Assembly (NCBI GenBank): GCA_030691635.1
Contig: JAUYEF010000091.1
Location: 1-38,446 of the forward strand
Source of the DNA: Bacillota bacterium
GTDB lineage: Bacteria; Bacillota; Sulfobacillia; JAUYEF01
DNA length: 38,446 bases
Reading direction: 5' to 3'
Shown here: piece by piece, positions 2 through 32,479 of the stretch
Layout: the number at the start of each line of letters is the position of its first letter
Position numbering within the stretch: position 1 is the first letter of the stretch
The notes under the pieces: generated by a model
Database searches by the model: none
What the model saw: the letters and a program-made list of their open reading frames with translations, nothing else
What the model was told of the DNA's origin: nothing
Program-made: the position numbers and the translations under genes

Positions 2-76
2 GACTCTTCTGCTGTTGGACCGGCAGTGGAGGCAGTTCGACAGGAAGCGATGAAGGCGCTTGGGCTTGAGGCCTAG
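2..76 (+). CDS. C-terminal end of a CDS truncated by the window edge (...DSSAVGPAVEAVRQEAMKALGLEA*)
   Basis: Open frame from base 2 to TAG at 74-76; too short to assign a family. Confidence 0.45.
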   Translation, partial: DSSAVGPAVEAVRQEAMKALGLEA

Positions 77-86
77 TACGTTGCAG

Positions 87-435
87 ATAGTCTCGTCCCA
101 CAGACGAGTATGAGAATACTACCGTTGGCGCGGCGACCGGACTTCCCAACAGTCAGGTTTGCGCCGGATTGGTCTACTTGGCAGTCTCGTCCGGCCGACG
201 AGTATGAGAATACTACCGTTTGCCCGGTGATCGGACTTCCCAGCAGTCAGGTTTGTGCCGGATTGGTCTACTTGGCAGTCTCGTCCGGCCGACGAGTATG
301 ATAATACTACCGTTCGTCCGGCGATCGGACTTCCCAGCAGTCGGGTTTGTGCTGAAATGGTCTTCTCAGCAGTCTCGTCCGGCCGACAGGTACGAAGGGA
401 CTTCTGTTTGCCCGTCGACCGCCTTCCGCCCGCCG
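87..435. repeat. Tandem array A: about 3.7 copies of a 94-bp unit with a hairpin per unit
   Basis: GCAGTCTCGTCC(GGCC)GACGAGTATGA.. boundary recurs at 87, 181, 275 and 369 (spacing 94, 94, 94); CTCGTC-N5-GACGAG inverted repeat in copies 1-3; copy 4 degenerate. Confidence 0.93.
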
Positions 436-534: not shown

Positions 535-1668
535 TCACTCCATCTGAAGAATGTGCAGGCCCCCGAACCGGTCTGTCAGCAATATCAGCCCGTCCTTGGT
601 CACCAGGACGTCGTTGCCTTCACAGGCTTCCTGCCCGGGCCCCGCAGGCTCAACATAATACGCGATCTCGCATGGCTTTACCGGGTCGGTGATATCGAGA
701 ACTCGCAGCCCGGCATTCGGGAACGTCGCGAAGATCACAGTCTCGCTCTGGTACGTGCCAGGCCGGTTTTCGTGCAGGTTGTGAGCTCCGACGCGACCTC
801 CACGAATCTCAAACACCGCCGGATCGGGACGCCACACCGACAGGACGCGCGGGGCGCGCTCATCCGCGATATCGACCACGCGGAAGCATTTGGGAGTCTG
901 GGGCTTGCCGGCCTGTCCCGACTCATCGGTCACAGCCAGGAGCTTCCGGCCCGGAAGCGGCAGAGCAGTATGAGTCTTCCCTCCCCCGCCCTTCTCCCAG
1001 GCAAGCCTGCTGATTTCCTGGGGCTTTTCGGGATTCGACACATCAAGGAAAAGAAGCCCCGCATCCCAGTGCCCGCAGTAAAGGTGACCGGCGTTGTAGA
1101 TTCCGTGATGGATCAGGGCATTTGGGAGATTCTTGTCAGGCTGCGGCTCATTGCCGCCTGCCCAGAGACCGGGGCTCCACCAGCGGCCAACCAGTTGCGG
1201 GCTGTCGGGTCGCTGGAGGTCGTAGATCTCAAGCATACGCTCGCGAAAACCTTGCGGACGGCCGAACACGTAGCAGTACCGTTCGCCCGCCCACCATATC
1301 CGGTGCACCCCGATGCCACCTGTATCGACAAAGGCAAGCTCACGGGGCTCTGCCGGTCTTGAGATGTCGAAGACAGCCCATCCGGACCGGCCGCCGGGGG
1401 CAGCGCCTCGTGGCTGTTCGTAGTTCACGAGCAACAGGTTATCGTTGGTCTGGCACTTGCTGTGCCTGGTTCGGGGATAGCACGGAAGCTCTCCGACCAC
1501 CTGCGGGTTACGAGGGTCCGATATGTCCACGATCAGCATTGGCAGGTCATCCTGCGACCGTCCAACGTAAGCGAAGTGGTCTTTGAGCATCACCTGCATC
1601 GTGGACCAGGTGCCGCCCATGTCTGAATGGCCGACAAACCGTATGCCTTGCCGCTCGGCGCTTTCCAT
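535..1668 (-). CDS. LVIVD-repeat (beta-propeller-like) protein
   Basis: Repeated L(x)IVDISDPxxPxxVG motifs (LIVDISDPRNPQVVGEL, LFLDVSNPEKPQEIS, LRVLDITDPVKPCEIA); AGGAGG upstream of ATG at 1668. Confidence 0.8.
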   Translation of the reverse strand: MESAERQGIRFVGHSDMGGTWSTMQVMLKDHFAYVGRSQDDLPMLIVDISDPRNPQVVGELPCYPRTRHSKCQTNDNLLLVNYEQPRGAAPGGRSGWAVFDISRPAEPRELAFVDTGGIGVHRIWWAGERYCYVFGRPQGFRERMLEIYDLQRPDSPQLVGRWWSPGLWAGGNEPQPDKNLPNALIHHGIYNAGHLYCGHWDAGLLFLDVSNPEKPQEISRLAWEKGGGGKTHTALPLPGRKLLAVTDESGQAGKPQTPKCFRVVDIADERAPRVLSVWRPDPAVFEIRGGRVGAHNLHENRPGTYQSETVIFATFPNAGLRVLDITDPVKPCEIAYYVEPAGPGQEACEGNDVLVTKDGLILLTDRFGGLHILQME

Positions 1669-1825
1669 GAGCATCCTCCTACTCCCAGATATTGATGTGG
1701 GCACCAGTTGTCCCGGCCGTAGTCCGCTTCGCTAGCGTTGGTGCCTCTGGCTGCAGTTCGCCTCGCCCGCGGCAGCCCGAAAGCCCTCCGCCGTGCTGCC
1801 GGCGCAACTACGGCCACCGCGACCG

Positions 1826-2722
1826 CTACCGGCCGCGGAGGCGCGGGTCCAGGGCGTCCCGCAGGCCGTCGCCCATCAGGTTAAACCCGAGCACGGTGAA
1901 CATAATTGCCAGGCCTGGAAGAATGGACATCCACGAATTCCGGTCAATATACTTCAAGCCGTCATTGATCATCAGTCCCCAGGCAGGCGTCGGCACCGAC
2001 AGGCCGAGGCCCAAGAAGCTCAAACTCGCTTCCACCAGGATCGCGGTGCCCATGCGCAGTGTCGCGAGGACCACGATCGGGCCGAGGATGTTGGGCAGGA
2101 TGTGCCTGAAGAACAAGCGCCCGGTGGGGACGCCGAGAGCGTTGGCGGCTTCGACCATAGCGCTCGTCTTGATGCCCAGGGTCTCCGCACGGGACATACG
2201 CACGACGCCCGGAAGCATGGAGACCGCCACCGCGGTGGCAATGATCATTATGGTGGGCCGCCCGATCAGCGACGCAACCAGTATGGCAAGCAGGTAGGTG
2301 GGGATCGCCATCATCACATCGACCAGTCGCATGATGACGTTGTCAACGGCGCCCCCTCGGAAGCCTGAGAAGATTCCGATCGGGACACCGACCCCGACGC
2401 CGATGACGACAGCGGTCAGGGATAGTGTCAACGATAGCCGTGCTCCGTAAGCCAGCCTGCTGAACAGGTCGCGGCCCATATGGTCCGTTCCCAGCCAGTT
2501 GACGCTGGACGGGCCCAGAAACCTGTTAAGCAGGTCTTGCTTAATTGGATCATGCTGGGCAACGACGGGACCCACGGCACCGAACAGGAGAAGCATTAGG
2601 ATGAGGGACATCCCCACAACCGCTGTCCTGGAGGCCAGAAATGACCCGGCTGCGGTGCGCCACGGGTTCTGTATGCCGGGTTCTTGGCCTGCCTGCTTAT
2701 CTTCTGTCATGGGAATCATCAC
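1826..2722 (-). CDS. ABC transporter permease, DppC/OppC family
   Basis: N-terminal OppC-like segment, DxxxRDLFSRLAYGARLSL, EAANALG, ILPNILGPIVV, EASLSFLGLGL. Confidence 0.9.
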   Translation of the reverse strand: MMIPMTEDKQAGQEPGIQNPWRTAAGSFLASRTAVVGMSLILMLLLFGAVGPVVAQHDPIKQDLLNRFLGPSSVNWLGTDHMGRDLFSRLAYGARLSLTLSLTAVVIGVGVGVPIGIFSGFRGGAVDNVIMRLVDVMMAIPTYLLAILVASLIGRPTIMIIATAVAVSMLPGVVRMSRAETLGIKTSAMVEAANALGVPTGRLFFRHILPNILGPIVVLATLRMGTAILVEASLSFLGLGLSVPTPAWGLMINDGLKYIDRNSWMSILPGLAIMFTVLGFNLMGDGLRDALDPRLRGR

Positions 2723-2725
2723 CTC

Positions 2726-3667
2726 TCAATCATACCGGATGCGCGGGTCTGCGATGCTGTAGGCGACATCAGCCAGAAAGTTTGCGATCAAGATCATGAT
2801 CATGAAAAAGATCATTGTCCCCTGGACCTGGGGATAATCCCTGGCAAGCACACCATCGACAAGGAGTTTGCCGACACCGGGGCGACTGAAGACCTTCTCT
2901 ATGATGGCTGTACCGCCCAGCATGTGGCCAAGATCGATGCCAATGATGGTGATCACAGGCAGCAGGGCGTTCCTGAAGGCGTGCCGGAATACGACCACGC
3001 GCTCGGTGAGGCCTTTGGCCCTGGCAGTCTGGACATAGTCCTGCCCAAGGCAATCGAGCAGAGCCGACCGGGTCAGCCGGGCGATCAGCGCAGCGGACCG
3101 CGTGCCGATGGCGATAGTAGGAAGCGCAAGGTATCTCAAGAAGTTTAGCGGGTCGTCAAGAGTCCCGCCGCCGATGGTGGGGAACCACCGGAGCCTCACT
3201 GAGAACAACATCATCAGGAGGATACCGAACCAGAAGCTCGGGGTGCTCACAGCGGTCAGGGCTAGCACCATGATTGCCTGGTCAGACCACCGGTTCCTCT
3301 GAGTAGCAGACACGACACCTGCAATGACACCTATGAGCGCGGCCAGTGAGAGTGCAGCCGTGGCCAGAGAAAAGGTGTATGGGAACTGAGCCAGGATATC
3401 CATCAACACATTCCGACCGGTCCTGAAGGAAGTGCCGAGGTTGCCCTTCAGAAGGTCTCCCAGATACCTTATGTAACGAATGTAGAGCGGTTGGTCTAGC
3501 CCCAGGCGTATCCTGATCGCGTCATAAGCGTCGCCTGAGAAGTAATTCTCAAGCATCATGGCGACAGGGTCGCCCGGAATCAGATTGACGGCGAGGAAGA
3601 TAAGCGTGACACCGCCAAACAGCGTGGGGATCGTTGTGAGCAACCGACGCGCAAAGTACTTCGACAT
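2726..3667 (-). CDS. ABC transporter permease, DppB/OppB family
   Basis: MSKYFARRLLTTIPTLFGGVTLIFL; FVQTARAKGL-type motif (YVQTARAKGLTERVVVFRHAFRNALLPVIT); RBS AGGAGG upstream of ATG 3667. Confidence 0.9.
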   Translation of the reverse strand: MSKYFARRLLTTIPTLFGGVTLIFLAVNLIPGDPVAMMLENYFSGDAYDAIRIRLGLDQPLYIRYIRYLGDLLKGNLGTSFRTGRNVLMDILAQFPYTFSLATAALSLAALIGVIAGVVSATQRNRWSDQAIMVLALTAVSTPSFWFGILLMMLFSVRLRWFPTIGGGTLDDPLNFLRYLALPTIAIGTRSAALIARLTRSALLDCLGQDYVQTARAKGLTERVVVFRHAFRNALLPVITIIGIDLGHMLGGTAIIEKVFSRPGVGKLLVDGVLARDYPQVQGTMIFFMIMILIANFLADVAYSIADPRIRYD

Positions 3668-3753
3668 CGCGGTCCTCCTAGCCCTAGCCCACACCACACA
3701 CCAGATGGGGCACGCCCCCATGTTACAGGGGCCGTGCCCCATCCTCTACTGCG

Positions 3754-5295
3754 TTACTGGCCGACCTTGATCAGCCACATGGGGTATCTCCACAGGACGA
3801 TTGGGAACGGCTGGATATCCTTCCGCATCGCCACCACGTTGACTGGGAATACGACCGGTATGATCGGAACGTCCTGACCCAGCTTATCCTGGATCTTTAC
3901 CCATGTCTGTGCGCGGGTCGCGACGTCGTTCTGCTTCGCCAGGTCTGCCACCAGGCTCTCAACTCCATCGTAATAGAGACGAACGTTATTGGCGTCGCCG
4001 GCCAGCGTTATCGTCGGCAGGAAGCCCTCAGGGTAGTCTCGGGACTGGCTGTACAGCATGATATCGTACTTCTTCTGGTCGCGACGCTCGAACATGATGG
4101 CTGACTCGAGCACCGTCAGCTGAACCTTGAGCCCGATGCCCTGCCACATGGACTGGATAGCGGTCGCCATGTCGCCTGTGTCGGTCCGTGTAATGAAATC
4201 GAGCTTGAAGTCGGCAGGAAGTTTGACCTGCTTGAGCAGTTCCTTCGCCCTAGCCGGATCGTACTTGAAGTACTCCTTGGCCGAGTAGCCGTAGCACTCC
4301 GGGTTGATCAGGGAATGGGCTGGTGCACCGAGACCGTCCATAAACTTGTCGACGAGCAGTTTCCTGTCGATCGAGATGGCCAGCGCCTCACGGAACTTCT
4401 GATCCTGGGTGGGCCTGTTCTTATTGCTGCTCATGGTCATGAAGACTGACCGACCCGCGGGTTTGACAATCGTGCTGACTTTACCCTTGCTGATTATGCT
4501 GCGCTGGACCTCAGGGACTGCGATGTAGGCCAGGTTCAGGTCGCCAGCCTCGATAGCCAGCTCCGCAACCTTATCGTCAACGATTCCTCTCGCGATGATC
4601 CGGTCCACATTGCCCTTATGAAGCCAGTTGTCCTTGTTCTTTACAAGAACGACCTTGTCGCCGGGCGTCCAGCTCTCGAAGATGTACGGGCCACTGCCGA
4701 CGGCGTCGGAAGTGTACTTCTGTCCTTTCTCTGCGATCGCCTTCTGGCACTGGACAAACCCCGACCGGTTCAGCACAAAGTGGGCGAACGTCGGGTCAGG
4801 CTTGATTAAGGTGATTTTGACGGTGTAGTTATCGACGGCCACGATCTCTTTGACGTTGGTCCATTCACCGCTGAAACCCGTACCGACCTTCGGGTCTTTG
4901 ATACGGTTGAAGGTCCAGACAACATCTTTGGCCGTGACCTCACCATAGCCCTTGTGGAACTTCGCGCCCTGGCGCAGGGTGAACGTGTACACTGAGGCGT
5001 CAGGAGAAATCTCCCATTTTGTTGCTAGGTCAGGCAGCAGTTTCTCTGGCGCATCGGGAAGCACATACACCAGCCGGCTGTAGATGAGAGGATAGATCAT
5101 GCCATCCTCGTGCCCACCGTGGAAAGGCACGTCCATGTTCAGGATGTCGTTCCGGCCCCGGATTACAAGGGATATCCCCACCGGTTTTGCCGGCTCAGCC
5201 GGTTTCTTGGGCTCAGCCGCTGGGGCGCACCCTGCGATAACAGCCGCAATCATCAGAACAGACACGAGCAGTGCCACAACTCGTCTCGTCAACAC
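3754..5295 (-). CDS. ABC transporter substrate-binding protein, family 5 (peptide/nickel type)
   Basis: Lipoprotein signal (..AAVIAGCAPAAEPK), WEISPDASVYTFTLRQGAKFHKG, DVVWTFNRIKDP, FREALAISIDRKLLVD. Confidence 0.92.
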   Translation of the reverse strand: MLTRRVVALLVSVLMIAAVIAGCAPAAEPKKPAEPAKPVGISLVIRGRNDILNMDVPFHGGHEDGMIYPLIYSRLVYVLPDAPEKLLPDLATKWEISPDASVYTFTLRQGAKFHKGYGEVTAKDVVWTFNRIKDPKVGTGFSGEWTNVKEIVAVDNYTVKITLIKPDPTFAHFVLNRSGFVQCQKAIAEKGQKYTSDAVGSGPYIFESWTPGDKVVLVKNKDNWLHKGNVDRIIARGIVDDKVAELAIEAGDLNLAYIAVPEVQRSIISKGKVSTIVKPAGRSVFMTMSSNKNRPTQDQKFREALAISIDRKLLVDKFMDGLGAPAHSLINPECYGYSAKEYFKYDPARAKELLKQVKLPADFKLDFITRTDTGDMATAIQSMWQGIGLKVQLTVLESAIMFERRDQKKYDIMLYSQSRDYPEGFLPTITLAGDANNVRLYYDGVESLVADLAKQNDVATRAQTWVKIQDKLGQDVPIIPVVFPVNVVAMRKDIQPFPIVLWRYPMWLIKVGQ

Positions 5296-5513
5296 TCTTC
5301 GATTCCTCCTAATTTGATTTGGTATGGGGAACGAAATCTCACGCCACGGAGGTTTAATCTGAGAACGAAAATTGACACGGCAGTGTCACGTTCAGGATCG
5401 AATTCGACACTGACAAAAACACTTCCTGTAAAGTGATAAAGACATCTTTATCCAAGCAGGCATTCCAGCTACCTAAGCGATAGCAAACGTGGCGGGGGCG
5501 TGCCGGTTGCGAG

Positions 5514-5543
5514 AGCACCGCCTGCGGGGGCGCAGGCGGTGCT
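5514..5543. terminator. Strong hairpin, probable terminator downstream of the dehydrogenase gene
   Basis: AGCACCGCCTGC...GCAGGCGGTGCT perfect 12-bp stem; weak T-tract. Confidence 0.6.
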
Positions 5544-5628
5544 TCTATAGGCCATTAGGCTGAACAATTCGCTCAACGGTCTCCGCCAGTCGCTTATCCG
5601 AACATACAGCCCGGACTTAGCGGGCGCT

Positions 5629-6684
5629 TCACTTCCGTATCGGCTGCGGCGGCGTCACGTTGTAGCGCCTAGCGCACTCAACGAGCTCCCCGTATACCGC
5701 GTCCGGAATGGGGCAGCCGTTAGCTTCCCGTTCATCTTCGAAATCGAATTCAATCTCGCCCGGCATGTATATCCTCTCCGTGCCGTACGCGAGTGGCTGC
5801 GCGTGAATGGCCTGGGTCATCTCGTCGATCTTCGCCTTGAACTCCTCGGGATCGCCGAATGCCCGTAGGTCGATCACGCCAAAGAAGTGACCTATGTTGG
5901 GTGCACGCACCATGTGATAGAAGTCAGCGATGTGATCGCCGAATGCGGCACCGGTCAACACTCCACAGAGTATGTCGACCGCCATAGCCAAGCCCGAGCC
6001 TTTGTAGGTACTCATGGGCATGAGCAAGCCGTTCAGAGCGACATTCGGATCCGTCGTCGGCCTACCCTGTGCATCCGCGCCCCAGGTGTCCGGGATGGGA
6101 AGCCCCTTCTTCTGGTGCAACGCGATCTTGCCCCTGGCGACAACGGTCGTCGCGCCGTCGTACACCACTGGGCGTTCTTTCTTGGCCGGGAAGGTGATGC
6201 AGATTGGGTTGGTGCCGAAATACGGTTTGATACCGCCCCAGGGGGCCATCATCGGGGAGGCGTTGGTGAACGATAAGCCGATCATGTCATACTTCAGAGG
6301 CATCATGCCGTAGTATGCAGCGATTCCGTAGTGGTTTGAACGGCGGACACCGCCCATGGCTACACCGGTTTTCTTAGCTTTTTCTATCAGTATGTTCAGG
6401 GTAAATGTGCCGGCGACCGAGCCCCAGCCATCATGGGCATCGACTAGAACTGAGCTTGGTGTCTCGTGGATGATCTCGCAGTTCGTCTTCTTTGTCACGT
6501 GGCCATGTTCCAGGTTACCCAGGTAGACAGGTAACCGCACGATACCGTGCGAGTCGACACCGCGCTTGTTGGCGGCAGTCAAGTTGTCCGCCACAATCGC
6601 TGCGTCCTCGGGCGCCACTCCCGCTGTGACCAGGAGTTCCCGCGTAAACCGAGCGATCTCAGATGGTCTGTAAAATGCTTCCAC
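5629..6684 (-). CDS. Malate/L-lactate/ureidoglycolate dehydrogenase family (Ldh2-type) oxidoreductase
   Basis: NNLTAANKRGVDSHGIVRLPVYL, RRSNHYGIAAYYGM, GTNPICITFP, YKGSGLAMAVDILCGVLTGAAFG. Confidence 0.92.
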   Translation of the reverse strand: MEAFYRPSEIARFTRELLVTAGVAPEDAAIVADNLTAANKRGVDSHGIVRLPVYLGNLEHGHVTKKTNCEIIHETPSSVLVDAHDGWGSVAGTFTLNILIEKAKKTGVAMGGVRRSNHYGIAAYYGMMPLKYDMIGLSFTNASPMMAPWGGIKPYFGTNPICITFPAKKERPVVYDGATTVVARGKIALHQKKGLPIPDTWGADAQGRPTTDPNVALNGLLMPMSTYKGSGLAMAVDILCGVLTGAAFGDHIADFYHMVRAPNIGHFFGVIDLRAFGDPEEFKAKIDEMTQAIHAQPLAYGTERIYMPGEIEFDFEDEREANGCPIPDAVYGELVECARRYNVTPPQPIRK

Positions 6685-6974
6685 TACTGATCCCTTCTTC
6701 CGTTGTGCTGGTTTGCCTGGCGGTCTCTAGCAGGTTTTCAACTGCGGCCACCGTCGTTCCTGCATTCTGTGGCATCATGCAACGGAACCCGAAGTGAAAG
6801 GACTTTGCTGAGAACGCCGTGAAAACCATCTCAGCCAGCGTTCGTCGTGCATGAACCCGGCACTGGGCCGCCCGCGCGGCGATCGGGGAGAAACGGTGGT
6901 GCGGAATGCAGAAAACCTCTGCCGGGTCCGGCGCAGAACTACGCGGGCGAACGGTGATCGTGCGAGGGAGGGCG

Positions 6975-7745
6975 ATGGCGGCCGTAGCCGTCCTGACCCG
7001 TGCCATCCTGACCGCCGCCTTCCTGTCTTCCGGGCTGCTTTCCGGCTGCGGCGCTCTGCAGCAAGTGCCGAAGTCGGTGTGGCTGCTGCAGGAAGGTGAG
7101 CCGCGGTTGTCCGTGAAATCACTTGAAGCTGAAGTCTCCGGCAGCAACCTGCAGCTGGTGTGGACTCTAGTGCCTGCATCCGGACAGGACCGTGCGACCT
7201 TTTCTCAGGGTAGGGCCGTGACGATAACCCTCATCGCGGCCGCGGATGGCAACCCGAACTGGAAGCCTTTCGAAGTCCGGGACGGCGACGCGCTGGTCAA
7301 TCACATAATCAGGCCTGAGGATGACTACCTGAAGACAGGCGGCTCTCTCGCACGGGAGGCGATAGATGTGGTCCGCCGGAAGCTTGGCACGGCCGGACGG
7401 CTGCATATTGTGACCCTCAAGTACCCGATCGACCTCGCGATCGCGCGAGAGCCCGGCGACCTCACGATCAAGCACCTGCTCGGCCCTCTTGAGACGACCA
7501 CGCTCACGAGGTCATTCCGTGCCGGCTACGACGTCCATGCTGGTTTCATTCCCAGCACCGGCTTCAGCCCGGGGGTCCCTGAGGTCAGGCTGGGCAGTGG
7601 CGTGACAATGCGCGGGGCGGGAATAGCGGTGCCCGGAGAGTATGTATTCGTTACGCAGCGATTTCACTGGATGAGCCGCCTGGCGACTGTGGCGGTCATC
7701 CTCCTGGTAATCCCCCTGGTCATGCGGCGAAGGCGAAAGACCTGA
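6975..7745 (+). CDS. Putative lipoprotein with C-terminal transmembrane helix and basic tail, unknown function
   Basis: N-terminal signal with LLSGC lipobox; C-terminal VAVILLVIPLVMRRRRKT; RBS GGGAGG before ATG at 6975. Confidence 0.65.
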   Translation: MAAVAVLTRAILTAAFLSSGLLSGCGALQQVPKSVWLLQEGEPRLSVKSLEAEVSGSNLQLVWTLVPASGQDRATFSQGRAVTITLIAAADGNPNWKPFEVRDGDALVNHIIRPEDDYLKTGGSLAREAIDVVRRKLGTAGRLHIVTLKYPIDLAIAREPGDLTIKHLLGPLETTTLTRSFRAGYDVHAGFIPSTGFSPGVPEVRLGSGVTMRGAGIAVPGEYVFVTQRFHWMSRLATVAVILLVIPLVMRRRRKT

Positions 7746-7783
7746 GACGACCAGACAGACGGTTGCCATCGGAGGCAATAGAC

Positions 7784-8458
7784 ATGTTCGACCTGGTAAG
7801 AAAGTTCACGGAGATACCCGGCCCGCTCGGCTTCGAAGGCGACGTCGCGAGTGCGTTCAAAGTCGAGTTGGCGGCACTGGGTTTCGAGACACAGACGGCA
7901 CCTGCAGAGGCAGAAGACAGATGTGGAGTGGACCGATGTCTTCGTGGACCTGGGCCTTTCGTCGAGGGAAGAAGTCGAGGCCCTCGGGATTCACCCGGGC
8001 TGCCCTGTCATATTCGACCAGAAGACTCACCGGATGGGCAATCTCATCCAGGGCAAAGCGATGGACACGCGTGCCTGCCTTGCACAGATGATGCGGAGTT
8101 CGACCTTGCGGTCTGTCTCGAGGTGGGGCTGGCAGCAGACATCCCGACGGTGGGCTTGAGCCAGATGCCTGTCTCGCTGGGGAAAGGCCCCATCCTGGTC
8201 CATAAGGATGTGGGCATACACTACGATGAGAGGGTCCTGGGCCTGCTCGAAGAGGCTGCATCCCGCGCGGGCGTTCCGGTGCAGCACGCGGTGTTCTACG
8301 GGTTCGGGAGCGACAGGTCAGCGTTCATGAAGAGAGGTATCCCGGCCGCGCTGTTCGCGTTCCCGGCCAGGTACACTCACACCGCCAACGAGACATGCTC
8401 GCTCGACGACCTTGAATCGATGGTCAGGGTGCTCAGGAGTCTCTGCGAGGAACGGTGA
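7784..8458 (+). pseudogene. Decayed M42-family aminopeptidase
   Basis: N-terminus MFDLVRKFTEIPGPLGFEGDVASAF and C-terminus (SFMKRGIPAALFAFPARYTHTANET-type) in one frame; the M42-like central block DVFVDLGLSSREEVEALGIHPGCPVIFD...GKAMDTRA lies in another frame; total length far below a normal M42 protein. Confidence 0.8.
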
Positions 8459-9710
8459 TCGATCCTTCAGGCATCACGAGCACTCTGGCGCCCGGCCCTG
8501 CCATCGCGAGCGCTGTGCTTATCGCGTCCTGGACGCTCGCTACATGACGAAACCCGAGTTCACGAGCGACATCCGGTTGTAGGCTCGATAGAAGCCAGAC
8601 TGTTGCTCTGGCGAGCAGTTTCCCGACCGCGTAAGCTTTGTGCCCTCCAAGGACGAAGTTCGCCCTGAGGGCATTTTCGAGCGCCGGAAGAGTCCTGTAC
8701 CGTTTGGCCCAGTCGTGGTAAGTATCCGATCCGACGCCATCACAGCATTCCGCGAGGAACACGATGTGCCCTCCCGGCCTTGTAGCCTGGGCGGCATTAT
8801 CCAGGGTCTTCTGAGCCTGGTACATGTTGATGTCCTTTGGGTACCCGCCACAGCTCGCTATGACAAGGTCCGCTTCCCAGGGTAGGCTCACGCCGTTCAT
8901 TCGCTCCACCATCCGGCAGCCTGCCACGTGGGCTTTCTCCATGTCTCCACAGAACACGCCCGCGAACTCGTGCTGCTCGTTGAGCACCATATTCACAAGG
9001 AAGCCGCCGCCGGTTATCCTGGCCGCCTCAAGCAGGTCGAGGTGCAGCGGGTTCCCGTCGAGTCTGCCGATCTCGGCGCCTTCGCAGAGCATCATCGCGT
9101 GATTTCTCTGGATCGTCTCATGGCCCGCGACGCCGGGCACGAGCGCTTTCCTGCCGCCTCCGAAACCGGCCATGAAGTGGTGGACGATGCTTCCAGTGAG
9201 GATCCGGAGTCCTGCCTCACTTACAGTCCTGTTCAGCCATACCGGTGTACCGCGCGTCGTCGTGCCGTGATAGACCAGCGATGCTTGGTCGCAAGCGACA
9301 TGGTTTATGCATCTAACCCGCTTCCGTGAAGACTCGCCGATCACCTGGTCCATTTCGCAGTCTGACAGTGGCCTGTGGCTCCCGCAGGCGAAAACCACCG
9401 TCACCTGGGCATCAGGCACGCCGGCTTCGTTCAGGTAGTCCAGGAGCAGGTGTATGAATCGCTCGGAGTTTGCGAGTCGCGTGGGGTCGTTGACGATGAT
9501 CACGACGGGCCTTGACCCGTTCTGCCGTGCAAGGTCCTTGAGGGGCGGGCTCGCGATGGGGTCGTCGAGTGCGTGGAGGAACTCCTGCCGGAAGTTCCTC
9601 ACCGGAGGCAGGTCGTTAGGCATCAAGAAAACTGTATTGACCGCATCCGGTATCGTGATGGAAACCGTGCCCTGCCCGTATCTCAAGTTCACTGAGCCCA
9701 CCAGTCTCAC
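8433..9710 (-). CDS. LarA/DUF2088 family (nickel-dependent lactate racemase-like)
   Basis: NDPTR, ACGSHRPLSDCE, VHHFMAGFGGGRKALVPGVAG, IQRNHAMML; GTG start overlaps upstream stop (GTGA). Confidence 0.87.
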   Translation of the reverse strand: MRLVGSVNLRYGQGTVSITIPDAVNTVFLMPNDLPPVRNFRQEFLHALDDPIASPPLKDLARQNGSRPVVIIVNDPTRLANSERFIHLLLDYLNEAGVPDAQVTVVFACGSHRPLSDCEMDQVIGESSRKRVRCINHVACDQASLVYHGTTTRGTPVWLNRTVSEAGLRILTGSIVHHFMAGFGGGRKALVPGVAGHETIQRNHAMMLCEGAEIGRLDGNPLHLDLLEAARITGGGFLVNMVLNEQHEFAGVFCGDMEKAHVAGCRMVERMNGVSLPWEADLVIASCGGYPKDINMYQAQKTLDNAAQATRPGGHIVFLAECCDGVGSDTYHDWAKRYRTLPALENALRANFVLGGHKAYAVGKLLARATVWLLSSLQPDVARELGFRHVASVQDAISTALAMAGPGARVLVMPEGSITVPRRDS

Positions 9711-10843: not shown

Positions 10844-11590
10844 CTACGAGCGCACCTCCCCCACCTTGTCGCCGTCAACTCGCGGCCTGCCGAGGCCGAC
10901 ATTCGTCTTGCCGTTGTGATAGGGGCTCTCGCCCATGTCGAACACTGTGTCGAGCACATTGCTTTCCGGCACGTTCCGGTATACAAGGTCCACTGAGATC
11001 ACGGTATCGACCTGTCCGGCCAGAGCCCGGATCGCTCCCAGCACCTCGGCGGTCCTTTCAGCCGGCAGCAGAAACTCGATGATCGCCGAGAGCACTTTCT
11101 CCCGTGCGACTTCTGGGAGGCAGTCGCCCGTCACAGGATCGAGCAACGTCGTCAGCGGGTTCTTGGGTTCCAGCGATATGCCCATCCGCTTCAGCGCCCT
11201 GCCCACAATGCCTGCGTCGGCGAGCCTTGCGCCCACGCCGGGCCTGCCGAGCTCGACGCTCATGCCGACGAACCCTGGCGGAAAACGCCCCGTGACCTCG
11301 TTTGTCTTCATCTCCTCAGTCCCGCGCCCCGGCACCTTCGTCTCCTTGTGCTCGATGAGCGGGTTTGAGAAGGTTCCCCTGACTGAACGAGGCCATGCTG
11401 CTTCGGGCGCATAGATGGCCTCGAGGCCGCACACCTTGGATCTTTCGCATACTCCGCAGTCGACACACTCATCTTCGTCGACCTGCGATACGACCTTGCC
11501 GCCCAGGAGGCGCACAAAGCCGGTGCACGACATGGTGCAGTATTCATGGCACCGGCCGCAGCCGGAGCATTTTGCCTCGTCGATCCTCAC
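10844..11590 (-). CDS. 4Fe-4S ferredoxin-domain protein with unknown C-terminal domain
   Basis: CSGCGRCHEYC and CVDCGVCERSKVC motifs at N-terminus; ATGA overlap with upstream gene. Confidence 0.82.
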   Translation of the reverse strand: MRIDEAKCSGCGRCHEYCTMSCTGFVRLLGGKVVSQVDEDECVDCGVCERSKVCGLEAIYAPEAAWPRSVRGTFSNPLIEHKETKVPGRGTEEMKTNEVTGRFPPGFVGMSVELGRPGVGARLADAGIVGRALKRMGISLEPKNPLTTLLDPVTGDCLPEVAREKVLSAIIEFLLPAERTAEVLGAIRALAGQVDTVISVDLVYRNVPESNVLDTVFDMGESPYHNGKTNVGLGRPRVDGDKVGEVRS

Positions 11591-12918
11591 TCTTTACGCC
11601 CTTTCACCATGACCTTGCCGGTGCCCGGGTCCGGCGCAAGCGCCTGCGGTGCAGTGATGACGCTGAACGGTCCCGGATATCCGGCCACTGAGAGGTCCAG
11701 GCCGGCTGCCGTTTCGCCGAGCCTTTCGATCAAGCCGCCAAGTCCCGAAGGCTCTGTCGCCTGGAAGTAGCCCGAGACACGATGACCACGGACGACGGCG
11801 TAGCGGTAATCGCCACCCGGCTCGCCGGATTCGAGCACCCTGTCCCCCTCGCGCGGGACTAGGTCCCCGAACGAGCACGCCACACGCGGCATGGCAGGCA
11901 CGGAATCCGCTGTACCGGCCATTCCTTCACACGAAACCGCAAATGTGTGCCACCCGGTGCTCGGGGGCGTCTCGGCCGGCACGCCGACCGCAACCAGGCC
12001 CGCGACCTTCCCCTGGACTGAAGCGTGATGCCAGAGTCCGGCGCTACGGCTCTCGCCGGAGGTGTGGGCGACTGCCGCGCAGTCGCCTGCAGCAAGAATG
12101 CTCGGGTCGCTCGTGCGCTGGCTTGTGTCGACCAGGATACCCCTGTCGCACACCCGGAGCCCGGCATCACGTGCGAGAGCGACGTCCGGGCTCATGCCCG
12201 TGCAGTCCAGGCAAAGGTCGAAGCCGGTGGTCTCCGGGGCGTGGCCGCGGACCTGTACAGAGACCTCCCAGGTATCCCCGGCCTTCCGGACCGAGTCTAT
12301 GAGCGCGGCGGTATGCACGGATGCTCCCCATTTCCTCATGCATGTCTCTAGAAAATCCGCAAACCTCGGCGGTGTTCGACCGGGTAAGATCTGCCTTTCG
12401 CGTTCGAAGACTGTGACCTTCATCCCGGCCCGGATGAGCGCGGTAGCCATGTGCAGGCCAAGAAAGCCGCCGCCGGTAACTGCCGCGGTCTTGCCCTCGG
12501 TCACAAGAGCTTTGACCCGGTCCGCGTCATCAAGGGTCCAGACCGGTTGTCCAAAACGGTGGGACGGTGTCGCGCCGACAGCCAGGATCAGCGCCTCATA
12601 GGGCACTTCCGCGCGCCCCGTGGGTCCGGTGGCCAGAACGGTGCGGGCCGCCCTGTCGATAGAGACCACAGTCGTGCCGAGGAGTTGCGTGAATTCCGGC
12701 CGGGCATCACCCGTGTCTGGCCGCGTCGCAGCGGGCCTGGCCAGGAATGCCTTCGCACGGTCTACCTGGCCGGAGATGTATTTTGGCAGAGCGACCTTGG
12801 AGTAGGGCTCGTCGCTCTCGCGAGATATCAAGGTGACGGTCGCACGCACCTCGCTCGAAAGAATTGCGTCATGCGCGGATGCGGCGGCAGCGCCTGAGCC
12901 TACGATAATGACCCTCAT
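11587..12918 (-). CDS. FAD-dependent pyridine nucleotide-disulfide oxidoreductase-type protein (FNOR-like)
   Basis: MRVIIVGSGAAAASAHDAI FAD motif, AVTGGGFLGLHMATALI second dinucleotide fold, ILAAGDCAAV; ATGA overlap with CooS-like stop. Confidence 0.88.
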   Translation of the reverse strand: MRVIIVGSGAAAASAHDAILSSEVRATVTLISRESDEPYSKVALPKYISGQVDRAKAFLARPAATRPDTGDARPEFTQLLGTTVVSIDRAARTVLATGPTGRAEVPYEALILAVGATPSHRFGQPVWTLDDADRVKALVTEGKTAAVTGGGFLGLHMATALIRAGMKVTVFERERQILPGRTPPRFADFLETCMRKWGASVHTAALIDSVRKAGDTWEVSVQVRGHAPETTGFDLCLDCTGMSPDVALARDAGLRVCDRGILVDTSQRTSDPSILAAGDCAAVAHTSGESRSAGLWHHASVQGKVAGLVAVGVPAETPPSTGWHTFAVSCEGMAGTADSVPAMPRVACSFGDLVPREGDRVLESGEPGGDYRYAVVRGHRVSGYFQATEPSGLGGLIERLGETAAGLDLSVAGYPGPFSVITAPQALAPDPGTGKVMVKGRKE

Positions 12919-14279
12919 TTCGGAGACCACGTCGTGGACGGCATGGAGACCAGCTTGTCCCAGATAATTTCCAGCGGCTCTTCAGAGGCGTAGTTGACCA
13001 GCGGGAGTCCTGAGCCCCCGTTCCAGCCGAGGACAGCAGCGAGTCCCGGTCCCCAGACCGGCAGCACGGTCCCGAGGTAGGTGGGAGCCCCGAGACTCGC
13101 GAACTCCAGCGCCAGGGCGATGTCCCTCGTCCTGGTGGCCTCGGGCAGGGCCACGAACACAGGACGGGTGAACGCCCTGTCCCTCAACAAAGCAAGCGCC
13201 CATCCGACTCCGGCGGGGTTGTCGGCGGGGACGCATCGTCCGCCCGACCCCATCAGCCCGACCTCTCCCAGCACCGAAGCGGAGTCACCCAGAGCCAGCA
13301 CAGTGAAGCCGGCCTTGAGAGCCATTTCGGTGATCCGTATCGTGCTTTCACCGCAAGTCCTCTTCACACCGAGGCCTCCGGTTACGATCAAGTAGCCGGC
13401 CGAGGGCTCTTCGAAACCATCCCACTCCACAACACGGCCTGTGAGAGGCACGGGTGGGTAGTCCGAGAAATGTCGCTTGGCCGCTCTTACCACATCGCCG
13501 GTACGGAAATTGGACGCGTAGAACACCGGAGCCTGGACATCGAGGTCTTCCTGCGCCATCACGCGGGCGTACGACCTGTCGCCTGTGATGACCGCGTCCA
13601 CCCCACCGGCCAGCACGACCGTTCCGGCCAGCGACGACGGGCATATGACAGGCAGGCCCACGGAGAAGCCGTCCCTCTCCCCGCCCGACAGCACGCACTC
13701 AAGGCCCGTGTCCGCAAGGCTTTCGGCCATGGACCGCGCCACCGTCCCTGAGAGCCCGTCGAGCAACACGGCGGGCCGCAAGGGGTTCCTCGCACCAAGA
13801 CCGCACCGTACTCGCCCTGTGCCCAGCGCGGGCTCAGCGTCTGCTTCGTTGCCCTCGGTAACCGCCGTGGCCAACGCGGCATCGCGCAGAGTCGCTCCGA
13901 GCGCTCCCATGTCCATCCTATAGCGTGAGACCATGGATATCAGGCTCAAGACCGGCGCCGGGACTGTATCCGTGCCCGGCAGCCTATCGTCGATACCGGC
14001 AAGACGCCTTATGAAACCGCGGGCGGCCGTCAGCGCGAGCCAGGCGCCCGCCATCTCCAGAGGGGTTCTCCCGCAGACACCGAACCTCGAACCCTTGCCG
14101 AGAGGGTCGCAGTGACATGGGCCGTCAAGACAGTCGTGGCAGAACAGGCCGCTCGACGCAAGCCTATTCTGCGGTACGATTCTCTCGTATCGCTCCCATG
14201 CCGTGTGCACACCAAGGGAAAACAGGCGCTCGAACAACGGCTGGTAGCCGTCCAGAGCGACCTTCATCCTCGTCTTCAT
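12915..14279 (-). CDS. Short CODH (CooS)-like protein lacking most C-cluster ligands
   Basis: N-terminal C47x2C50x4C55x13C69; GARNPLRPAVLLDGLS resembles the CooS HGHNP region; C-terminal PEATRTRDIALALEFASLGAPTYLGTVLPVWGPGLAAVL resembles CooS C-terminus; preceded by CooF-like gene. Confidence 0.8.
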   Translation of the reverse strand: MKTRMKVALDGYQPLFERLFSLGVHTAWERYERIVPQNRLASSGLFCHDCLDGPCHCDPLGKGSRFGVCGRTPLEMAGAWLALTAARGFIRRLAGIDDRLPGTDTVPAPVLSLISMVSRYRMDMGALGATLRDAALATAVTEGNEADAEPALGTGRVRCGLGARNPLRPAVLLDGLSGTVARSMAESLADTGLECVLSGGERDGFSVGLPVICPSSLAGTVVLAGGVDAVITGDRSYARVMAQEDLDVQAPVFYASNFRTGDVVRAAKRHFSDYPPVPLTGRVVEWDGFEEPSAGYLIVTGGLGVKRTCGESTIRITEMALKAGFTVLALGDSASVLGEVGLMGSGGRCVPADNPAGVGWALALLRDRAFTRPVFVALPEATRTRDIALALEFASLGAPTYLGTVLPVWGPGLAAVLGWNGGSGLPLVNYASEEPLEIIWDKLVSMPSTTWSPK

Positions 14280-23532: not shown

Positions 23533-23606
23533 TCACGTTGTTGAAGAGCCCCTCACGATTTCGCTAGCATAGGCCACAGGGCGCCTGGCAACCGGTTAGT
23601 ACGGAT

Positions 23607-23794
23607 GTGACTTCCGGAGAGGTACTTCTTCTGAAGAACTATCTGCCAGGAATCTAGATCTCCGGGTGATCTATACCTCTGGAAGACAGTCGGAGTGAAT
23701 GTGACTTCCCGGCAGCTAGATCCGCCGAACATCTAGCTGCCAGGAATCTGGTTTTCCCGGCGATCTGTATCTCCGGGAGACGGTTGGGCCGTGA
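23607..23794. repeat. Tandem array B: two copies of a 94-bp unit with strong hairpins
   Basis: GTGACTTCC at 23607 and 23701; CTGCCAGGAATCT at 23643 and 23737 (both spacing 94); perfect GGCAGCTAGAT-N9-ATCTAGCTGCC in copy 2. Confidence 0.85.
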
Positions 23795-32044: not shown

Positions 32045-32479
32045 TCACCGGCCCCTACGCCTGTTCGAATTGGTGACATTCCGCCTGTTCGTATTGCCCG
32101 CGTCTCGCCTGTTCGCATTGCTGACGTCCCTGCCGGGCGCCTCCTCTCTCACCGCGAAGCGCTTCAGGCGGATGACCGGGACGCTTGCCACCAGGGCGAC
32201 AGAGTCATCGCTCCGAGAGAGGTCTATCTCTATCGCAGACTGGTCGATATCCATGTACTTCGTCACCGCCATGATGATGTCGTCCTTGAGCAGCGACATC
32301 ACCTCAGGGGCGATTGAAGACCTGTCGTGCACGAGGAGTATCTTGAGCCTGTCTCTGGCCATGCTGCCGCTGGAAGGCTCCCTCTGCCTGTCCGAGAGCC
32401 TGTCTGTGGGCCTTTCCGTAGGCCTCTCCGCGCGACTGCTCAGGCGCTCTCCGAAGATGCGCTTTATCAGGTCGAACAA
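32045..32479 (-). CDS. minE: Cell division topological specificity factor MinE with extra low-complexity segments
   Basis: MFDLIKRIFG, ARDRLKILLVHDRSSIAPEVMSLLKDDIIMAVTKYMDID; located after minD. Confidence 0.92.
   Translation of the reverse strand: MFDLIKRIFGERLSSRAERPTERPTDRLSDRQREPSSGSMARDRLKILLVHDRSSIAPEVMSLLKDDIIMAVTKYMDIDQSAIEIDLSRSDDSVALVASVPVIRLKRFAVREEAPGRDVSNANRRDAGNTNRRNVTNSNRRRGR
32058..32129. repeat. Three 24-bp tandem repeats within minE (8-aa NxNRRxxx units)
   Basis: CGCCTGTTCG at 32058, 32082, 32106. Confidence 0.85.

Follow-up and report, generated by a model that had tools for sequence, protein, structure and literature searches.

In Porphyromonas gingivalis, the BrickBuilt element is a MITE that ‘has trapped a 23 nt direct repeat’; one strain has it at 19 intergenic places, and part of the copies lack the leader and tail ends (PMC4596501). 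The BOX elements of pneumococci have a boxA-boxB(n)-boxC organisation (PMC3049150), and in Mycobacterium tuberculosis the MIRU-VNTR loci are minisatellites dispersed over a single genome (PMC3635867). Here we describe a family of tandem repeats from a genome of the Bacillota class Sulfobacillia (assembly GCA_030691635.1), starting from contig JAUYEF010000091.1 (C206), whose full 38,446 nucleotides are called the window below. A sequence-only reading of the window had drawn attention to a 94-bp array near its left end and offered three interpretations: structured RNA units, a protein-binding array or a dispersed repeat. The last of these is strongly supported by our results, with about 40 loci, subfamilies with shared ends and one transposition signature, whereas the RNA interpretation fares badly. 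We consider it likely that the window array belongs to a genome-specific, dispersed family of non-coding palindromic minisatellites, which transposition has helped to spread and which are amplified locally.

The window array and the anatomy of its unit

The array occupies positions 88-420 (plus strand in canonical orientation), at the extreme left end of the contig, and comprises about 3.5 copies of the 94-bp unit in a convergent intergenic region, as delimited by TRF, unit-model matches and alignment. The earlier reading had placed such an array at 87-435 and its existence is readily confirmed. TRF reports a period of 94 with 3.2 copies, 90% matches and no indels over 89-387, and at lag 94 the best 94-base stretch is 94.7% identical, against 49% for the best value over lags 60-140 in 60 dinucleotide Markov resampled sequences. 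In terms of the three palindromes defined below (P1, Q and P2), alignment places a partial P1 with Q and P2 at 88-168; two complete units follow, at about 169-262 and 263-356, and then a decaying P1-Q at 357-420, all on the plus strand.

Copies 1-3 are nearly identical, and the motif CTCGTC-N5-GACGAG-TATGA is found without mismatch at 92, 186 and 280. At 374 it has three mismatches: the fourth copy (369-420) is degenerate, matching only over its first 20 bp or so, and its second hairpin is gone. The claim that every unit carries both hairpins is thus true of copies 1-3 but not of copy 4. The loop difference that had been noted for copy 1 is real, CTCGTC-CCACA-GACGAG (92-108) keeping the stem of the CGGCC-loop versions at 186-202 and 280-296. 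The second hairpin, AGTAT-GAGA-ATACT, lies at 107-120 in copy 1 and recurs at +94 and +188; like the first, it is a dyad to which no strand is assigned. Both had been described as conserved. This holds for AGTAT/ATACT, which is the central palindrome Q, the local form of a dyad common to the whole family, but CTCGTC/GACGAG is a spacer-centred dyad that is strengthened at the window locus only.

The convergent setting had been read correctly. On the left, the 3' end of an upstream gene, read directly (2-76, plus strand, 25 codons, cut by the contig start), closes with a plausible TAG stop at 74-76. On the right, and convergent with it, is the gene of an LVIVD-repeat protein (535-1704, minus strand), whose intrinsic-terminator-like hairpin at 467-488 of the same strand lies outside the repeat. 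The array had also been taken to be non-coding, and no predicted gene overlaps any array of the family, which speaks against a coding repeat; a minus-strand open frame at 119-538 does span the window array and was not picked by the codon-usage gene finder. A CRISPR array is ruled out, since what repeats is the full period of 94 bp, with its spacers. Elsewhere in the window, oligopeptide-type ABC transporter genes at 1826-9701, for two permeases and for a binding protein of family 5, adjoin Ldh_2 and lactate-racemase-like genes, and a 24-bp repeat at 32058-32130, with three copies, 73% matches and a length divisible by three, probably lies inside coding sequence.

An alignment of 62 distinct units shows their anatomy. 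P1, Q and P2 are imperfect palindromes, each about 25 bp long, that lie some 31 bp apart with dyad centres at unit positions 12, 42 and 74 and are separated by spacers of 6-7 bp, so that the 94-bp unit may be viewed as a higher-order repeat. Half-sites alternate in orientation about every 15-16 bp along the unit, and weaker dyads, centred at 27 and 58, sit on the spacers because neighbouring palindrome arms are related. Within loci, the palindrome arms change by 10% and the centres and spacers by 21-23%, in counts that are purely descriptive, related pairs being among them. The slower change of the arms, together with a length held at 94 bp over loci that are only some 60% alike, hints at a structural constraint beyond pure drift.

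Copies across the genome and beyond

A search of the host genome for further copies had been proposed and proved productive. The genome (3.84 Mb in 451 contigs) contains about 40 related repeat clusters, all of them intergenic, assembled into a family by pattern, DNA and sequence-model searches; the analysis covered the matches from these searches and the sequence surrounding them. With the window array as query, a DNA search reaches one other genomic place, at 66% identity; the palindrome GGACTnCCnGGCAGTC is common to that locus and to a second array in the window. This array, at 23584-23791 (minus strand in canonical orientation), has two units of the B flavour between two minus-strand genes, and its 94-bp spacing led to recognition of the family. 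The family pattern has 58 matches and the same pattern run backwards as a control has none, while the unit-model search of the genome yields 88 unit matches at E<=1e-3 in about 40 loci. These copy numbers are a lower bound, since repeats break the assembly: about every second array locus is found no more than a few hundred bases from where a contig stops (C51, C134, C204, C220, C277, C421, C422 and C438 are examples), and arrays at contig ends account for part of the fragmentation of the assembly.

With homologous tandem arrays at about 40 intergenic loci of one genome, the family is a dispersed minisatellite. Loci hold about 1 to 4 units, a variation seen among loci of the one genome. Of 33 distances from one unit start to the next, 31 are 92-95 bp, and autocorrelation over independent loci gives the same period of 92-95 bp, with sub-lags at 32 and 62. 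There are two broad flavours of unit, A and B, homologous to each other, and the window array forms a separate sequence cluster apart from both. Mean unit identity is 85% within a locus and 62% between loci, as might be expected if local turnover of units kept each locus alike while the loci diverged.

The arrays are not distributed evenly with respect to genes. Convergent gaps hold 8 of 20 arrays but only 5 of 55 control gaps (Fisher p=0.004), and divergent gaps 2 of 20 arrays as against 20 of 55 controls (Fisher p=0.04). These small numbers refer to arrays with both neighbours known, which excludes the window array since its left gene is a stub at the contig start; the controls are the remaining gaps in those stretches that measure 100 bp or more, and genes were called by a simple purpose-written codon-usage finder. 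The same bias towards gene ends is seen for pneumococcal BOX, RUP, SPRITE and IS copies, where it has been read as tolerance of parasitic mobile DNA (PMC3049150), and a similar gene-context bias has been reported for REPs (PMC3733652). Arrays may persist mainly downstream of genes, where insertion would be least harmful.

Beyond this genome, a search of relatives had also been suggested and came back empty: the DNA search finds no match to the family unit in 60 relatives. Nor is there any in another 153 genomes of the class, the closest genomes compared sharing only the class, in a phylum sample of a further 397 genomes searched under stricter filters, or in collections of viral contigs, plasmids and phages. 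The one exact pattern match among GTDB contigs, in Halorhodospira (L132), has no array and agrees with about chance expectation. The most economical account is that the family is species- or lineage-specific.

Subfamily ends and mobility

In several subfamilies the flanking sequence is shared past the array borders. The clearest information comes from sub1, whose arrays lie between IS ends about 50 bp long in inverted orientation, TGTGAACGCACAGCGATAAAGTCA... on the left (C51, C103 and C220) and ...GGCTGTTCATTGACA on the right (C134, C204, C277, C421, C422 and C450). The end sequence is TGTGAACGCACAGCGATAAAGTCATAGCTAAGTGAACAGCGAAAATGTCACC, of which the right side carries a related version in inverted orientation; the one on C422 departs from the others before its terminal part is reached. 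On C51 the left end is immediately adjoined by 16 bp, CGGCTTTCTGGGGGCA, that recur perfectly and in direct orientation next to the right end on C204, with no gap in either case. A second direct repeat, AGTGAATAGACAAG, 14 bp long, is found at C220 and C277, where 3 bp separate it from the right end. The evidence for target-site duplication thus comes from two insertions, and in both the two sides lie on different contigs. Sub1 therefore has inverted ends matching an IS, no transposase inside and a target-site duplication, which are the marks of a MITE. From the IS-type ends and the 16-bp duplication, it follows that the sub1 array moved as MITE cargo, in the place of the transposase gene.

The same type of end occurs without arrays on C53, C240 and C73. 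Matches to the ISNCY-family transposase, all below the curated cut-off of the model and several of them fragments, were obtained on C145, C320, C428, C50 and C240; such genes or fragments occur near sub1-type ends and, on C50 and C428, beside arrays. Short IS remnants have no match in Pfam. Target duplications of 16-28 bp characterise one IS1202 group, and its family has TGT/ACA ends (PMC10132070). Judged by these sequence resemblances, the carrier of sub1 would be an IS1202/ISNCY-like insertion sequence. On C53, the region 11400-13771 (L150) contains a candidate phosphoenolpyruvate-carboxykinase-like gene between sub1-type IS ends at 475-535 and 2273-2325.

Other subfamilies have other borders. 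Sub2 (C279, C310 and C318) has GGGGCTGTCCCAA-type ends, a second MITE-like end type. For sub3 (C101, C112, C295 and C333, with C301 on the right), inspection by eye shows precise ends, with no inverted repeats or duplications at them, and several B copies, also by eye, resemble whole numbers of units with clean ends. To the right of the arrays at L119 (C295) and L127 (C398) there is a common stretch containing CTTCTCACGGAACCGTGCGTACGGGCC, which we take to resemble the 3' end of a group II intron placed after a terminator hairpin. The flanks of the window array (88-420), the left of which is only 87 bp long, contain no inverted repeat, target duplication, IS sequence or known end motif.

These features can be combined into a simple scheme. 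New intergenic sites would be reached, at least in part, by units travelling as passengers of non-autonomous transposons, and after arrival the number of units would change locally, presumably by recombination or slippage. The window copy, we infer, would have reached its site in this fashion too. A function for the host seems unnecessary to explain the family.

Alternatives and known systems

The hairpins that first made the array conspicuous lend no support to a structured RNA. Single units fold no better than shuffled sequences (z -0.1 to -1.6). The whole window array together with the terminator, on the minus strand, folds somewhat better than shuffles (z -3.2), in a stretch that includes the strong terminator hairpin, and RNAalifold on 18 units gives a weak consensus of -4.6 kcal/mol. 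Watson-Crick pairing lies above column shuffles at centres 12, 74, 27 and 58. Covariation, which had been proposed as a check, exceeds column shuffles at several dyads (z 2.4-6.7) but is weak, and we do not count it as proof of selection because related sequences inflate z. After the column-shuffle control, G-T cells in the stems show no preference over A-C cells, therefore nothing points to one RNA strand. A structured non-coding RNA family is accordingly not supported, the window having no match in Rfam and the stems no G-U tolerance on one strand.

The same observations bear on a broader possibility, that the arrays are BIME- or REP-like elements used by the host, whether as RNA hairpins at 3' ends (terminator backup or mRNA protection) or as topoisomerase or nucleoid sites between convergent genes. 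Enrichment in convergent and depletion in divergent gaps are as described for REPs, and arms that change more slowly than spacers would fit too, but the gene-end bias is shared with pneumococcal elements regarded as parasitic, the folding, G-U and Rfam results just given count against it, and loci so divergent, in a family found in one genome only, make host use unlikely. The phasing of the dyads could instead reflect an array of sites for a protein, a putative dimeric binder being aligned on one face of the DNA to build a filament or cluster. Half-sites every 15-16 bp would then combine into the dyads at 12, 42 and 74, whose spacing of about 31 bp is about three helical turns, the period has been held at 92-95 bp despite sequence drift, and the inner half-site is partly conserved around CCnGG and AGTY. 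However, the half-site itself is not the same from one flavour to another, the window array with its changed P1 and Q being the clearest example, and common descent also explains a common length, so that we regard this reading as quite improbable. Simple slippage of a unique sequence at the window locus, of no wider meaning, has in its favour the near-identity of copies 1-3, which indicates that recent local amplification did occur; the homologous units of equal length and architecture at about 40 other loci refute it as a full account and leave it scarcely credible.

A dispersed minisatellite spread partly by transposition therefore remains the reading we prefer, and it leaves room for a more ambitious version. 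This would see a length-locked, higher-order 94-bp palindromic satellite as the recurrent cargo of unrelated mobile elements, with a putative DNA-binding or replication/recombination protein acting on the phased dyads. We think this rather unlikely, but if true the family would be a bacterial satellite with a selected period (3 x ~31 bp). That the period has stayed fixed at 94 bp while the copies diverged so strongly is in any case a testable puzzle, and whether the period is selected is the most interesting question that the family raises. There is also a caution here, that hairpin arrays seen at one locus should not be read as functional RNAs.

Among known systems, MIRU-VNTRs share with the present family the dispersal of minisatellite loci over one genome, but lack an equivalent of its palindromic three-part units and transposon-borne copies. 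REPs and BIMEs (PMC3733652) are also extragenic palindromes in alternating orientation, found between convergent and unidirectional genes; the fixed 94-bp higher-order unit distinguishes the arrays described here. A RAYT/REP origin is ruled out, since a search of the genome for a RAYT found no Y1 transposases other than an IS605-type tnpA, which has a TnpB-like gene next to it, and a fragment. This IS605-type pair lies at a contig start (L063, C444) and the fragment, of the same tnpA, on C30 (L064). Nor is a GTAG/CGTC tag conserved at the palindrome end, where the columns vary among the 62 units (ACGTC, ATGTC, ACATC, AGATC). Compared by organisation only, BOX is closer, being a dispersed intergenic mosaic with a tandemly variable inner module, hairpin-forming and enriched between convergent genes, but the present unit is 94 bp long and no fixed pair of boxA/boxC-like ends is found in all copies.

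The nearest documented kind is BrickBuilt, likewise a tandem repeat in a MITE-like element, intergenic and with unit numbers that vary between loci. The differences lie in the unit, 23 nt there and 94 bp with three palindromes here, and in the carriers, with at least two unrelated end types and many copies without ends in the present case; BrickBuilt ends resemble the IS5 family, those of sub1 an IS1202/ISNCY-like element. The family is set apart by a 94-bp unit of three palindromes, by a length that stays constant although the copies have diverged, and by the use of more than one carrier. In eukaryotes, satellites hitch-hike inside transposons. On our preferred reading, the family would be a clear example, in a bacterium, of transposons dispersing a satellite-like higher-order repeat, parallel both to BrickBuilt and to these eukaryotic satellites.
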